Part shown: piece after piece, positions 53,276 to 59,905 of the stretch | How the letters are laid out: the number at the start of each line of letters is the position of its first letter | Position numbering within the stretch: position 1 is the first letter of the stretch | NCBI RefSeq assembly: GCF_017301615.1 | Contig: NZ_CP059066.1 | Coordinates: 1,409,001-1,473,000 of the forward strand | Reading direction: 5' to 3' | Source: Koleobacter methoxysyntrophicus | GTDB lineage: Bacteria > Bacillota > Thermosediminibacteria > Koleobacterales > Koleobacteraceae | DNA length: 64,000 nt | Translations under genes and position numbers: made by a program | Notes under the pieces: generated by a model | Told to the model about the DNA's origin: nothing | Databases searched by the model: none | Seen by the model: the letters and a program-made list of their open reading frames with translations, nothing else

Positions 53276-53458
53276 AATTATTTAATTACTTTTATCTATT
53301 CCCCAGTTTTTGGAATCCTCCTCTGGGGTCGTAGCATTAGGTTGCTGATAAATCCCGGAGCGATATTAAAGTCAATTTTTTTAAAATTTTTTTAAAAAAA
53401 AGAAGGATTTTTTTGCAAATTATAGAATAGAAAACATTAAAAAAAGTTATAAAAAAAC

Positions 53459-53603
53459 GACTATATACTTTATTCAGAAAACAATAGGCTTTGTATTGAA
53501 TTAATAGCGTTCCCGAAAGCACTTGTTTATGTTTTTGAAACCATGGATGGCGGGGAACAAAATTCCAGAGCAAGCGGAGCGCGTATGTAGAGTGAACGTT
53601 AAA
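53459..53603 (+). ncRNA. Structured RNA-like element, copy A (upstream of AOR operon)
   Basis: Conserved blocks shared with copy B (59742): CTATATACTTTA then TCAG and AAAC (53459-53482), TTGAAT (53496), GATGGCGG (53546) and AAATTCCAGA (53560). The spacing from block one to GATGGCGG is 87 here and 86 in copy B, and from GATGGCGG to AAATTCCAGA it is 14 in both. A stem GTTCCC/GGGAAC (53509-53514 and 53553-53558) encloses the GATGGCGG side. A small hairpin CAATA/TATTG lies at 53482-53498. The arms differ in sequence from copy B but pair in the same place, as expected of a conserved RNA. TATACT inside block one may be a -10 box. I could not match it to a known riboswitch class. Confidence 0.6.
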
Positions 53604-53636
53604 ATCTAACCGGTTCTTAATTATTACCGAGTGCTT

Positions 53637-53785
53637 ATGGCAGTTTAAACTCCGATCCTATAAGACCCCTATACGGGTTTTATAGGGCGAAAGGGCATAG
53701 AAAGCGATTTCCATGCCTGCCATTACGCAAAGGAGTTCATCGCTGTTTACGGGCCCGTACCTGCAAACAGCCGGTGAACTTTTTT
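53637..53785 (+). promoter_or_regulatory. Riboswitch-like fold overlapping an intrinsic terminator (Moco/Tuco candidate)
   Basis: Elements in order: ATGGCAG (53637), AACTCC (53648), a 12-bp hairpin (53657-53686), a second hairpin GGGCAT...ATGCC (53693-53717), CTGCCAT (53717), GGAGTT (53732), then a terminator (53734-53780) with six T. ATGGCAG pairs with CTGCCAT, and AACTCC pairs with GGAGTT. The 3' GGAGTT overlaps the terminator's left arm, so folding of the upstream part would prevent termination. The next gene encodes a tungsten/molybdenum-pterin enzyme, so a Moco/Tuco riboswitch is the best guess from context. I have not verified the class. Confidence 0.6.
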
Positions 53786-53846
53786 GTATAAAATTTAAAA
53801 AAGGAGGTGTAACCTGGCATCAGGTGTTCTGATAGCCAGAAGCGAT

Positions 53847-54326
53847 GTGAGTAAAATATTAATGCTCTCACCTGAAAGGTGTATAGGTTGTAGAACCTGT
53901 GAGCTGGTGTGTTCCTTTAATAAAACCAAGGCTTTTAATCCCAAATGTTCAAGGGTTACTGTTATCTCATATGATGAAGCTGCAATTTCCGTGCCCATAA
54001 TGTGTATGCAGTGTGAAGACCCTTCATGTATGAAAGTATGTCCTACTTCAGCCATCATGAAAGCCGATGATGGAACGGCTGTAATCGACGAAAAGAAATG
54101 TATAGGCTGCAAATTCTGCATTAGTGCATGTCCACTTGGGAACATAACTTTCAGCCCGATTGAAAGGAAGATAGTTAAATGCGACCTTTGCGGAGGCGAA
54201 CCCGGCTGTGCGGAGTTCTGCCCTTCAGGAGCAATTGAATTTAGGGAAGCTGCTCCAAATACCCTGAACAGAAAGAGAGTAATCGCCGAGAAGTTTAAAG
54301 AGTTATTCGGGGAGGTGATTGCATAA
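53847..54326 (+). CDS. Four-cluster ferredoxin-type electron carrier, AOR partner
   Basis: A 159-residue iron-sulfur protein with four cysteine groups: [37 protein letters not shown] and [15 protein letters not shown], room for four [4Fe-4S] clusters (HycB/AorA-like). It should carry electrons to or from AOR, whose ATG overlaps its stop. The start is uncertain. GTG 53847 lacks a ribosome site, whereas a perfect AAGGAGGTG at 53801-53809 sits five bases before an in-frame CTG at 53814. It is the first gene of the AOR operon, behind the riboswitch-like leader. Confidence 0.9.
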
Positions 54327-56131
54327 TGTTTGGATGGACCGGTACCTTACTCCGTGTAAATTTGACCGAGGGTACTGTCAAAAAGGAAGCCTTAAATCTG
54401 AGAGATGCCAAGCTGTATTTGGGAGGGCGGGGTTTCGGGACAAAAATAATGATGGATGAGGTTGATCCCGGGGTTGACCCGTTTAGCCCCGATAATAAAT
54501 TGATATTCATGACGGGACCGCTGACAGGAACCCTGGCTGCAAGCCCGGGAAGATATGAAGTTATAGCAAAAGCCCCCCTAACCGGTACAATAGGGGCTTC
54601 CAATTCAGGGGGTCATTTTGGCCCGGAATTGAAGTTCGCAGGTTATGATGGGGTAATCTTTGAAGGCAGGGCAGAAAAGCCGGTATATCTGTGGATAAAT
54701 GATGACTATGTTGAACTGAGAAGTGCAGAACACCTGTGGGGGAAAAACACCTTTGACACTACCGATGAATTGCTGAAAGAGACTTCCGATGATGCAAGGG
54801 TCGCCTGTATCGGCCCTGCCGGTGAAAAGCTTGTACTTTTTGCAGGGGTAATAAATGACAAACACAGGGCAGCCGGCCGCTCAGGTCTTGGGGCCGTAAT
54901 GGGTTCTAAAAATCTAAAGGCCGTGGCAGTTAGAGGAACAAAATCGATTGAGGTGGCAGATCCGGAGGGGTTTTTAGAAAAATGTAAAGATATACGTAGA
55001 AAGTTAAAACAGCATCCCGTAACAGGGACCGGGCTTCCCACCTATGGAACGGAAATACTGATTAATATATTGAACCAGTCCGGGGCTCTCCCTACCAGGA
55101 ACTGGAGGGATGGTGGATATTTCGAACATGCAGATGATACAGGTGGAGAAACACTGAGAGAAAAATACCTTGTTAGAAATAAGGGCTGTTTCGGGTGTTC
55201 AATAGGTTGCGGAAGGGTAACAAGAATCCCTGAAGGCAAATTTAAGGGCTTTGGGGAAGGGCCGGAATACGAGGCAGCCTGGGCATATGGTGCAGACTGT
55301 GGGGTCAGGGACCTTGCGGCCATAAGCAGGGCGAACTTTATCTGCAATGAGCTGGGCCTTGACCCGATTACCATGGGTGCAACTATAGCATGTACCATGG
55401 AAATGTATGAAAAAGGTATCCTATCAAGAAAAGATGTGGGCAGGGATGTGCCGTTTGGTGATGCCGAAGCAATAGTTGAATTAACAAGAATGACGGGTTT
55501 AAGAGAGGGGTTCGGAAATAAGCTGGCCGAAGGTTCCTATAGACTGGCATCAAGCTACGGCCACCCCGAATTATCTATGTCGGTTAAAAAACAGGAAATG
55601 CCGGCTTATGATGCAAGGGGTGTCCAGGGTATGGGCCTCGAGTACGCAACTTCAAATCGGGGAGGCTGCCATGTAAGGGGGTACCTGACATCTCCGGAAA
55701 TCCTCGGCATTCCCCAGAAACTTGACCCGCTGGTAACTACCGATAAAGCTGCATGGCTTAAGACCTTCCAGGACCTGACTGCAGTTGTGGATTCTTGTGG
55801 AATATGTCTGTTCACCACCTTTGCCCTGGGGCTTCCAGACATTTCTTCCATGCTGAGAACGGCATTGGCATGGGACTATTCCGATGAGGATGTCCTTAAA
55901 ATAGGAGAGAGGATATGGAACCTTGAAAGGATGTTTAATTTAAAGGCGGGATTTACCAAAGCCGATGATACTCTGCCCCCCAGGCTGCTGAATGAACCGC
56001 TGAAATCAGGGCCTGCCAGGGGCAAGGTTGTTGAACTGGATGTAATGCTTAAAGAATATTATGAAATAAGGGGCTGGGATAAAGACGGCGTACCCACAGA
56101 AGAGAAGTTAAAAGGGCTTTCTATAAAATAG
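54326..56131 (+). CDS. aor: Tungsten/molybdenum aldehyde:ferredoxin oxidoreductase
   Basis: Oxidises aldehydes to acids, or reduces acids, using a bis-pterin tungsten or molybdenum centre and one [4Fe-4S] cluster. The 601-residue protein has the pterin-binding [23 protein letters not shown], the cluster cysteines in [11 protein letters not shown] and the distal DSCGICLF, plus [15 protein letters not shown]. Length is typical. It overlaps the ferredoxin gene by one base. Downstream MoaD-like and NuoEFG-like genes suggest an NAD(H)-linked complex. The preference for W or Mo cannot be read from sequence. Confidence 0.94.
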
Positions 56132-56213: not shown

Positions 56214-56241
56214 GTATAATAAAATTTATCGGGGTATGGAT

Positions 56242-56511
56242 ATGAAGGTAAAATTCTTTGCGTATATAAGGGATTACACAAACTCAAGGGAAATCGAATT
56301 TGGATACTGTAAAACGGTTAGGGAGCTTCTGCAGCGATTATGCAAAAAGTACGGTCAGAAATTTAAAGACAGGGTTTTTAAAGGGGAGGAACTGAGCGGG
56401 GAGGTATTAATCCTCGTCAATGGCAGGGATATTGTTCACCTTAACCACCTGAATACCACTTTAAACGAAGATGATGAAATATGTATATTTCCAGTTATAG
56501 CCGGGGGTTGA
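56242..56511 (+). CDS. MoaD/ThiS-like sulfur carrier
   Basis: An 89-residue ubiquitin-like protein that ends in Gly-Gly (FPVIAGG), the site for adenylation and thiocarboxylation in molybdopterin synthesis. The sequence KVKFFAYIRDYTNSREIEF then TVRELLQRLCKKYG matches the family. Such proteins often sit next to tungsten AOR genes and may be dedicated to the W/Mo pterin cofactor. ATG 56242 is chosen over 56236 because GGGGT abuts the latter. Confidence 0.88.
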   Translation: MKVKFFAYIRDYTNSREIEFGYCKTVRELLQRLCKKYGQKFKDRVFKGEELSGEVLILVNGRDIVHLNHLNTTLNEDDEICIFPVIAGG

Positions 56512-56548
56512 AACAATATCTCAATTTCTAAGGAAGGTGAATCCTTTT

Positions 56549-57028
56549 ATGTTTTACACAAAAACTATATTAAACAAATACCCGAAAGAACAGAGGTACC
56601 TCCTTGCTGTTCTGCAGGATATACAGAAAAAATACAATTACCTGCCCAGAGGAGCTTTAATAATGGTACAGGAATACTTCGATGTACCCTTAAGTAAACT
56701 ATACAGCATGGCTACCTTCTATAAAGCTCTAAGTTTAAAACCCAAAGGTAAATATATTATAAGGGTTTGTGACGGAACGGCGTGTCATATCAGGGGTTCT
56801 GCCTTAATAATCGATGAAATACACAGGCTTCTCAATATCCTTCCCGGAGACACAACGGAGGACGGAAATTTTTCACTGGAAACCGTAAACTGCCTCGGTT
56901 CTTGTGCTTTAGCCCCGGTTATGGTAATTAATGACAAATACTACGGAAATGTTACACCGGCTCTGGTGAGACGGATTCTCAAAGAATATGGAGGCGTAAA
57001 TTGTGAACATATTCAAGAGAAAGGTTAA
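56549..57028 (+). CDS. NuoE/HymA-like [2Fe-2S] subunit
   Basis: A 159-residue thioredoxin-fold [2Fe-2S] subunit homologous to the 24-kDa subunit of complex I and to HymA of NAD-reducing hydrogenases. The cluster ligands are in VCDGTACHIRG and NCLGSCALAPVM, and the N-terminal helical domain has LLAVLQDIQKKYNYLP. The ATG at 56549 has AAGGTGA 8 nt upstream. It overlaps the next gene by 26 nt. Confidence 0.93.
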   Translation: MFYTKTILNKYPKEQRYLLAVLQDIQKKYNYLPRGALIMVQEYFDVPLSKLYSMATFYKALSLKPKGKYIIRVCDGTACHIRGSALIIDEIHRLLNILPGDTTEDGNFSLETVNCLGSCALAPVMVINDKYYGNVTPALVRRILKEYGGVNCEHIQEKG

Positions 57029-58829
57029 GAAAACGGTTCTTGTATGCTGCGGCACGGGCTGTCTGGCTAATAACAGCTTCGAAATATATAAAGGTCTGAA
57101 GAAAAAGATTGAAGATCTGGCCGTCAATGTTAAAGTCCGTCCTGTGGTCAAGGCTACGGGCTGCAACGGGCTGTGTGAAAAAGGGCCTATTGTAACTATC
57201 CTTCCCGATGACGTTTTTTATTGCGGTGTTAAGGTAACAGATGTAGATGAAATTGTAGAAAACACTGTATTGAATAATAAAGTAATAGAAAGGCTTTTAT
57301 ATTTTGATTCAGCGAAGGGGAAAAAGGTAAGATCCCATAAACAAAGCGAGTTTTACAGGAAACAGTTGAAGATTGCCCTTCGAAATATCGGGCAGATTGA
57401 CCCCGGGAATATAGACGATTATATTGAAAGAGGCGGATACAGTGCTCTAAGGAAGGTCCTTTTTAAAATGTCTCCTAAAGGGGTTATTTCAGAGGTGGAA
57501 AGGTCAGGATTAAGGGGAAGAGGTGGAGCCGGATTCCCTGCCGGCCTCAAATGGAGGCAATGTGCTGAAATGGATAACTTTCCCAAATACGTGGTTTGTA
57601 ACGGTGATGAAGGGGATCCCGGAGCCTTTATGGATAGAAGCATAATGGAAGGTGACCCCCACAGTATACTCGAGGGCATACTTATCGGTGCATATGCTGT
57701 CGGTTCAGAGAAGGGATTTATTTATATCAGAGATGAATATTCCCTTGCAATAAAAAATATGACGAAGGCTATAGAAAAAGCTGCCGAACGGGGTTTTTTA
57801 GGACAAAACATAATGGGTAAGGGATTTAGTTTCGATATCGAGATTGTAAGGGGCGGTGGGGCCTTTGTCTGCGGTGAATCTACTGCCCTTATGGCTTCAA
57901 TAGAAGGCAGGGTCGGAGAGCCAAGGATTAAATATATTCATTCTACAGAAAAGGGTTTGTGGGGGCAGCCTACGGTATTGAACAATGTGGAAACCTGGGC
58001 AAATATACCTGTGATAATAAACAAAGGGGCCGGCTGGTTCAGCCGCATCGGGTCAAAGGGCAGCAGAGGGACGAAGGTGTTTTCCCTGGTAGGAAAGGTA
58101 AGGAATACCGGTCTTATTGAAGTACCAATGGGAATAACCCTCAGGGAGATAATATTTGATATCGGTGGGGGGATTATCGGCAGCGGGAAGTTCAAAGCCG
58201 TCCAAACCGGAGGGCCATCGGGAGGCTGTATTCCGGAAAGCCTTTTAGGCTTAGGGGTAGATTTCGATTCCCTTAATGAGGTGGGGGCGATGATGGGGTC
58301 CGGCGGCATGATAGTTATGGATGAGAACACGTGCATGGTGGAGGTGGCGAGATACTATCTGAAATTCCTGTCCGAAGAATCCTGCGGGAAGTGTATCCCG
58401 TGCAGGGAAGGGATTAAAAGGATGCTCGAAATATTGGAAGATATGTGCACAGGGAAGGGCCGGGAAGAAGATATCGAGTTACTGCTGGAAATTTCAGAAA
58501 CGGTAAAAGAGGCATCCCTATGCGGCCTGGGTAAAACCGCTCCCAATCCCGTTATAACAACTATCAAATACTTCAGAGACGAATATCTGGCCCATATAAA
58601 AGATAGGCGGTGTCCTGCAGGGATATGCAGGGAATTAACCGTTTACTATATTGACAGAGATGTATGCAGAGGGTGCGGCCTTTGCAGGAAGGGCTGCCCG
58701 ACGGAAGCAATATCGGGAGAGATAGGTTCCCGTTTTACCATAGATACTTCAAAGTGCATTAAATGCGGAAGCTGCAAAGAGATATGCAGGCTTAATGCTG
58801 TGAAGGTTTTAGGAGGGGCAGCAGAATGA
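57003..58829 (+). CDS. NuoF/HymB-like FMN/NADH subunit with extra ferredoxin domain
   Basis: A 608-residue NAD(H)-reactive subunit. The order is: an N-terminal thioredoxin-like [2Fe-2S] domain (VLVCCGTGCLAN, ATGCNGLCEKGP), the FMN/NADH fold (RGRGGAGFPAGLKW, CNGDEGDPGAFMDR, GAGAYVCGEETAL-like GGGAFVCGESTAL), the N3 cluster ligand SCGKCIPCREG, and a C-terminal two-cluster ferredoxin domain (CRGCGLCRKGCP, CIKCGSCKEICR). This architecture is shared with electron-bifurcating hydrogenases and formate dehydrogenases. The GTG start follows GGAGG 8 nt upstream within the nuoE-like gene. Confidence 0.93.
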   Translation: MNIFKRKVKKTVLVCCGTGCLANNSFEIYKGLKKKIEDLAVNVKVRPVVKATGCNGLCEKGPIVTILPDDVFYCGVKVTDVDEIVENTVLNNKVIERLLYFDSAKGKKVRSHKQSEFYRKQLKIALRNIGQIDPGNIDDYIERGGYSALRKVLFKMSPKGVISEVERSGLRGRGGAGFPAGLKWRQCAEMDNFPKYVVCNGDEGDPGAFMDRSIMEGDPHSILEGILIGAYAVGSEKGFIYIRDEYSLAIKNMTKAIEKAAERGFLGQNIMGKGFSFDIEIVRGGGAFVCGESTALMASIEGRVGEPRIKYIHSTEKGLWGQPTVLNNVETWANIPVIINKGAGWFSRIGSKGSRGTKVFSLVGKVRNTGLIEVPMGITLREIIFDIGGGIIGSGKFKAVQTGGPSGGCIPESLLGLGVDFDSLNEVGAMMGSGGMIVMDENTCMVEVARYYLKFLSEESCGKCIPCREGIKRMLEILEDMCTGKGREEDIELLLEISETVKEASLCGLGKTAPNPVITTIKYFRDEYLAHIKDRRCPAGICRELTVYYIDRDVCRGCGLCRKGCPTEAISGEIGSRFTIDTSKCIKCGSCKEICRLNAVKVLGGAAE

Positions 58830-59590
58830 AGGTCATGATCGATGGGAAAAAATATGATGCCGAATATGGAGAATATATTTTAAATGTAGCAAGGAGAAAC
58901 GCGGTAAATATACCTGCACTGTGCCATTCCGATGCTTTACCGGGTCAGGGGAACTGCAGAATGTGTATCGTAGAAATTGTTGATAAAGGGAGAAAAAGCA
59001 TAGTAGCTTCATGTGCATATCCTATTACAGGAGAAATAGAGATTGTAACGAACTCCGAAAGAATATATAGAATAAGGAAAACCATTGTAAGGCTGCTTTC
59101 TGCTTCAGCCCCAGATAATGAATATATAAACAGGTTGAGAAAGGAATACGATATTCCCCCGGAGACCCGATTTAAGGTTGATAGAGATGGGAAGTGTATT
59201 TTGTGCGGCCTTTGTGTAAGGGCATGCGATGAAATAGGAGTTAGTGCCATATCTACCGTAAACAGGGGGACGACTAAACGGGTATCGACGCCCTTCGACG
59301 AACCTTCAACCGTATGTATTGGGTGTGGGGCATGTGCCTATATCTGCCCTACAGGAACGATAGAGGTTAATGAGGATGAGGGCAGGAGGGTCATATGGAA
59401 TAAGACCTTCGAGCTTTTAAAGTGCTCGGAGTGCGGGGAATACTTTATAACGCGGGAACAATACGAATATATTAAAAAAAGGTATGATTTAGCAGACACG
59501 AATGAGTTATTATGTGATAAATGCAAAAAGAAGGGAATAGGTGATAAGTTGACAAATGTGCTGCATAATGTAATACCCGTGCAAAAATAA
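58826..59590 (+). CDS. NuoG/HymC-like short iron-sulfur subunit
   Basis: A 254-residue protein resembling the N-terminal part of complex I NuoG. It has a [2Fe-2S] domain (CHSDALPGQGNCRMCIVEI, then SCAYPI) and two [4Fe-4S] sites (CILCGLCVRACDEIG, CIGCGACAYICPTG). A further C-terminal zinc-ribbon-like pair follows (LKCSECGEYF and LLCDKCKKKG). The molybdopterin domain of full NuoG is missing, so the catalytic partner must be separate; AOR is the natural candidate. It overlaps the nuoF-like gene by 4 nt and ends the operon. Confidence 0.9.
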   Translation: MKVMIDGKKYDAEYGEYILNVARRNAVNIPALCHSDALPGQGNCRMCIVEIVDKGRKSIVASCAYPITGEIEIVTNSERIYRIRKTIVRLLSASAPDNEYINRLRKEYDIPPETRFKVDRDGKCILCGLCVRACDEIGVSAISTVNRGTTKRVSTPFDEPSTVCIGCGACAYICPTGTIEVNEDEGRRVIWNKTFELLKCSECGEYFITREQYEYIKKRYDLADTNELLCDKCKKKGIGDKLTNVLHNVIPVQK

Positions 59591-59741: not shown

Positions 59742-59905
59742 GGCTATATACTTTACTCAGGAAACGGCAAGTCCGGTTGAATAAATGGCAAACACATAAG
59801 CGACTGTTAATTTGGCTCCTAGCCTGTGATGGCGGAGAGCCAAATTCCAGAATGAACAGAGCTAAGAGCGGTGCGAACGGCAAGCGGAGGGATGCCGTAG
59901 GTAAG
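59742..59905 (+). ncRNA. Structured RNA-like element, copy B (upstream of DUF2877-FdrA operon)
   Basis: It shares with copy A (53459) the blocks CTATATACTTTA/TCAG/AAAC (59742-59765), TTGAAT (59777), GATGGCGG (59828) and AAATTCCAGA (59842), with spacing equal to within two bases. Stem AATTTGGCTC (59809-59818) with GAGCCAAATT (59837-59846) is a perfect 10-bp pairing at the position where copy A has GTTCCC/GGGAAC. A further hairpin ACGGC/GCCGT (59876-59898) follows. It fills the gap 59644-59933 and ends just before the ribosome site of the DUF2877 gene. No terminator is seen, so control may be at translation. The class is unknown. Confidence 0.6.

Follow-up and report, generated by a model that had tools for sequence, protein, structure and literature searches.

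The leader of an aldehyde ferredoxin oxidoreductase (AOR) operon of Koleobacter methoxysyntrophicus very probably carries, at positions 53638-53786 of the 64-kb stretch of DNA analyzed here (the window), a P3-less, or "Tuco"-form, riboswitch of the Moco RNA family (RF01055) that represents an AOR-linked variant of this family and acts as an ON switch for a tungsten-pterin cofactor. We infer the identity of the ligand, its stabilization of stem P1, and the direction of control; the membership of the 53638-53751 segment in RF01055 can be assigned firmly from its sequence. The parts of the leader and the operon are as follows.

53637-53643, forward strand: ATGGCAG, segment a of the first-pass annotation (sequence)
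53638-53751, forward strand: P3-less RF01055 aptamer, AOR-linked variant (cmscan and the R1 model)
53648-53653, forward strand: P1 5' strand AACTCC (segment b), which pairs with 53732-53737 and covaries
53657-53686, forward strand: P2, the first hairpin, 12 bp; no CCUAAG...UAUGG receptor (RF01055 alignment, fold)
53693-53718, forward strand: P4, the second hairpin, tetraloop closed by A-U (RF01055 alignment, fold)
53704-53707, forward strand: GCGA (GNRA) tetraloop of P4 (sequence, fold)
53717-53723, forward strand: CTGCCAT, segment a' (sequence)
53719-53728, forward strand: P5, made up of G-C and C-G, where the consensus is C-G and C-G (flipped pair; alignments)
about 53727-53786, forward strand: predicted intrinsic terminator, 5' arm containing b' (fold)
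53732-53737, forward strand: P1 3' strand GGAGTT (segment b'), common to the terminator 5' arm (folds)
53780-53785, forward strand: U run of the terminator (sequence, fold)
53800-53809, forward strand: Shine-Dalgarno (SD) sequence AAAGGAGGTG of the first gene (sequence, conserved position)
53814-53839, forward strand: hairpin with one bulged A between the SD and the start codon, outside the riboswitch (fold, homologues)
53847-54326, forward strand: first operon gene, ferredoxin-like 4Fe-4S protein, GTG start (Pfam Fer4 families)
54326-56131, forward strand: AOR (PF01314, 518.7 bits; PF02730, 285.8 bits)
56236-56511, forward strand: MoaD/ThiS-like sulfur-carrier protein (TIGR01687, 78.3 bits, cut-off 49.5)
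56537-59590, forward strand: three genes for NuoE-, NuoF-, and NuoG/HydA-N-like electron-transfer subunits (profile matches)

When positions 53400-53860 were scanned against all Rfam families with more permissive filters and E values up to 10, the sole family to match was RF01055 (Moco/Tuco, Molybdenum/Tungsten riboswitch), found by cmscan at 53638-53751 on the forward strand with 41.2 bits (E 1.6e-8; the Rfam gathering cut-off is 36 bits). The scan of the whole window at the gathering threshold did not report the 53638-53751 match because of its fast filters, despite the score being above the cut-off, and 4 of the 20 AOR-linked sites (in 19 loci) likewise went unreported at that threshold. 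The covariance model R1, built without the window RNA from 29 other P3-less RNAs (28 RNAs from other genomes of the phylum, plus the second copy in this genome), assigns it 46.2 bits (E 8.4e-11). The 53630-53790 segment folds at -69.5 kcal/mol (z = -7.7), a value equaled by none of the 200 shuffles. The window RNA has the P1, P2, P4, and P5 stems around the conserved junction CUCCGA ... AGGG ... AAAGGAG, its P3 positions are deleted in the RF01055 alignment, and it stands upstream of a Mo/W enzyme operon with AOR and MoaD-like genes, the gene context that is characteristic of the family. These matches bear out the first-pass annotation, which had proposed a Moco/Tuco-class riboswitch ahead of genes for a W/Mo-pterin enzyme and a MoaD-like protein. 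A search of the plasmid collection gave no relevant match. In Regulski et al. 2008 (PMC2408646), the family is divided by P3, with the P3-less forms tied to tungsten cofactor genes; direct binding of Moco to any family member is not demonstrated there.

The first-pass annotation also gave the strand order as a-b-hairpin-hairpin-a'-b' followed by a terminator, and every one of these strands lies where it was placed, with b-b' turning out to be the P1 stem of RF01055. The a-a' pairing, put forward as a further helix, has to be given up as a conserved element: shuffling the upstream bases yields a match of equal length in 9% of cases, and any 6-bp match is seen in only 6 of the 37 homologues (window RNA included), with differing sequences. 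In the predicted folds, a-a' and b-b' are mutually alternative, which speaks against reading them as a pseudoknot.

Among 80 loci fetched solely for their AOR protein, R1 detects 38 sites in 35, nearly all of them at the same place, immediately upstream of the ferredoxin gene. R2, a second model made from the AOR-linked set, yields 39 sites spread over 36 of the 80 loci, a count that is not independent, most of its sites having been used in building the model. Covariation in homologues, on which the first-pass annotation had staked its reading, is present: in the 37 AOR-linked sequences, 89.5% of the cells are paired (71.5% in shuffles) and 193 cells carry two-sided changes (62 +/- 8 in shuffles). 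P1 is paired in 95.1% of cells, with two-sided changes at 4 of its 5 pairs (for example, CTCC/GGAG vs TCTC/GAGA), and P4 shows such changes at 7 of 10 pairs; P2 in this set was placed by hand, RNAalifold having lost it to alignment gaps.

What has emerged from these alignments is that the AOR-linked RNAs are, judging by sequence, a recognizable variant: the P5 pair is flipped, the GNRA loops vary, and the 11-nt receptor is absent. Of the 37 AOR-linked RNAs, 36 read CCTGCC..GC in P5, and L097 departs from this in having GU for GC; none of the 29 other P3-less RNAs has the motif, their P5 being CCTCCC, or nearly so, with GG or GA. C-G, U-A, and G-C are thus all seen at this pair, in support of P5, and the G-C form marks AOR linkage in the sequences compared here. 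P5 is located at the junction and adjoins the P1 control strand. The P4 loops of the AOR set are GUAA, GCAA, GAAA, GGAA, and other GNRA forms, and a receptor-like sequence is found in 2 of the 37, whereas the other P3-less RNAs have a GAAA loop in all 29 cases and the receptor in 19 (strict) or 28 (CTAAR). The pairing of a GAAA loop with the 11-nt receptor (CCUAAG...UAUGG) is typical of RF01055, though not required for membership; the window RNA has a GCGA loop and a plain P2 helix, and members with GCAA loops and no receptor are reported in Regulski et al. 2008 (PMC2408646). The AOR-linked variant was not found described in the parts of that paper covered by this comparison.

The linkage was also evident in loci fetched by RNA alone, where an AOR gene lies within 1.5 kb of 9 of 13 flipped vs 2 of 73 unflipped RNAs (Fisher p 8e-8, uncorrected for relatedness). 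In wider fetches, AOR also follows another member of the 13 flipped RNAs (L203/L240), the further flipped matches L242, L243, L245, and L250, and the close variants L241, L244, L248, and L249. The exceptions are the unflipped L072 and L161, which precede AOR; L251, which stands before a molybdopterin oxidoreductase gene; and L239, which has no AOR in the ~16 kb fetched downstream. At this last locus (L239/L257, G336:C1:1059500-1076500), the flipped-P5 Moco RNA precedes genes for a sigma-54-type regulator, an alcohol dehydrogenase, and Hyd/Nuo-like and CooS-like proteins, all named from reading the proteins. A pattern search with CCTGCCN{3,8}GCAAAGGAG in 399 genomes returned mostly chance matches and was excluded from the counts. 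It is conceivable, though rather unlikely, that the AOR-linked RNAs constitute an ON-switch specificity class for the AOR cofactor (tungsten, two pterins, no nucleotide) and not for the cofactor forms to which the other P3-less Moco RNAs respond.

The 3.10-Mb genome encodes a second RF01055 RNA, at C1:1790715-1790835 (66 bits). It too lacks P3, and a gene downstream of it reads as moeA (a name from sequence reading). Of six AOR-family genes in the genome, only the one in the window has an RF01055 match; there is none near the five others (C1:1693525-1697149, 49678, 166601, and 1741140).

The predicted terminator, taken as 58 nt ending with the T run, folds at -28.1 kcal/mol (z -6.2), although a simple consensus terminator scanner did not list 53727-53786; a sigma-70 promoter scan found no site above chance. 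GGAGTT is inside the 5' arm, as the first-pass annotation had it when it let the left arm begin within b'. In computed folds of the growing transcript, P1 belongs to the optimum for ends at 53739-53775; from 53778, as the U run is being made, the terminator takes its place. For the full leader without ligand, the terminator fold is computed at -69.5 kcal/mol, and forcing P1 to form raises this to -57.0 kcal/mol. A strict automatic criterion places the P1 3' strand within the terminator in 29 of 37 AOR-linked leaders, and visual inspection adds five (L097, L104, L116, L124, and L130); among the other P3-less RNAs, the overlap occurs in 6 of 29 (Fisher p 4e-6, uncorrected for relatedness). The terminator is missing from L096 and L114, so the layout is not universal in the AOR-linked set.

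Since the two structures have the P1 strand in common, aptamer and terminator exclude each other, and a ligand that holds P1, as in riboswitches in general and in the Escherichia coli moaA RNA, would make this leader an ON switch. We infer this direction of control from the P1/terminator overlap, which is kept in most AOR-linked leaders; the ON-switch layout suggested in the first-pass annotation is to that extent upheld. As transcription proceeds, P2, P4, P5, and then P1 would fold. A bound tungsten-pterin cofactor would hold P1 and withhold GGAGTT from the terminator, letting RNA polymerase continue into the ferredoxin-AOR-MoaD-Nuo-like genes; with no cofactor, the growing terminator would capture the P1 3' strand and transcription would end at 53780-53786. 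Synthesis of the tungsten enzyme would then be tied to the presence of its cofactor. In L107, L111, and L129, two AOR-type Moco RNAs stand back to back within a single intergenic region and have a terminator each, and the divergent operons at these loci may share control.

The same RNA could work with the opposite sign, the cofactor favoring the terminator, as an OFF switch like that of E. coli moaA, the one member tested in Regulski et al. 2008 (PMC2408646), which represses. This appears unlikely: aptamer and terminator are mutually exclusive in most AOR-linked leaders, the P1 3' strand being used by the terminator, and the terminator is already the favored fold of the full leader when ligand is absent. 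Repression in E. coli follows from the same P1-stabilizing logic, as its ribosome-binding site lies within P1. A plain attenuator, with no sensing role for the upstream fold, would leave unexplained the covarying RF01055 structure and conserved junction bases across distant AOR loci, as well as the conserved overlap of P1 with the terminator, and must be considered very unlikely.

Directly upstream lies a segment with an inverted repeat, called RNA element A in the first-pass annotation, which suggested that the leader may carry two sensors in series:

53459-53598, forward strand: element A, a decayed copy of a MITE-like repeat that lacks the right end (repeat comparison)

From its sequence, this segment is best described as a degraded copy of a dispersed ~190-bp MITE-like mobile repeat, of which it retains the left end (53459-53477, 18 of 19 positions) and the middle, with 81% identity to the repeat over 53541-53598; the latter stretch matches ~30 other places in the genome at 75-89%. 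Repeat copies that retain both ends measure 189-192 bp, start with (G)ACTATATACTTTRCTCAGG or nearly so and finish with GGGGATAGYCAT, and have inverted ends and AT-rich flanking target duplications, mostly of 8-12 bp. A better copy is found at 59742-59896. A search of 150 related genomes gave no good match to the repeat. The fold of element A is no more stable than those of its shuffles (z = 0.11), and the scan of 53400-53860 with E up to 10 gave no Rfam match for it; the evidence supports one structured sensor domain in the leader and not the two of a tandem riboswitch. The idea of a second riboswitch is accordingly abandoned as extremely improbable, and the preferred reading remains a single Moco RNA upstream of the terminator.

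The SD-start hairpin appears to be a separate feature of these operons. Among homologous leaders L079-L158, AOR operons have a strong SD ~30-55 nt from the start codon with an intervening hairpin in 52 of 81 cases, and riboswitch-free leaders have this hairpin as well. The SD of the AOR gene itself is normally spaced in 73 of 81. The z value is below -2 in 44 of the 52 hairpins vs 11 of 156 control windows, and the stems covary, with 29 different stem bases (pairs were counted per sequence, since the MAFFT alignment misplaced stems). The hairpin is mostly spaced 5-6 nt from AAGGAG and 6-7 nt from the start. It may loop out, bringing the SD and the start codon together, or bind a regulator.

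Compared to known systems, the riboswitch at 53638-53751 is by itself an ordinary RF01055 member: it has in common with the RNAs of Regulski et al. 2008 (PMC2408646) the P1, P2, P4, and P5 stems, the junction bases, a GNRA loop on P4, the Mo/W cofactor gene context, and the terminator that follows some members. It differs in the flipped P5 pair, the lack of the GAAA loop/11-nt receptor pair, and the placement of the P1 3' strand in the terminator, and it scores low, 41 bits vs 66 for the other copy in the genome and 75-95 for the best in the phylum. With the P3-less "Tuco" subset it shares the lack of P3 and the position before a tungsten-enzyme operon; the other P3-less RNAs fetched have P5 of the form CCUCCC...GGAAAG and GAAA loops, unlike the window RNA, and precede genes that read as formate dehydrogenase, molybdate/tungstate transport, and moeA/moaA. 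The E. coli moaA riboswitch belongs to the same family and likewise has the P1 3' strand as its control strand, but it has P3 and is an OFF switch on biosynthesis genes with the ribosome-binding site in P1 (PMC2408646); later RNA-seq suggested termination as well (PMC12121620). The ON layout could explain how a tungsten-enzyme operon waits for its cofactor. In PMC2408646, the distinction between Mo and W was tied only to the presence or absence of P3; the association of the P5 flip with AOR genes provides a second, sharper correlation and, together with the conserved ON layout, a testable route to the ligand and to cofactor discrimination.
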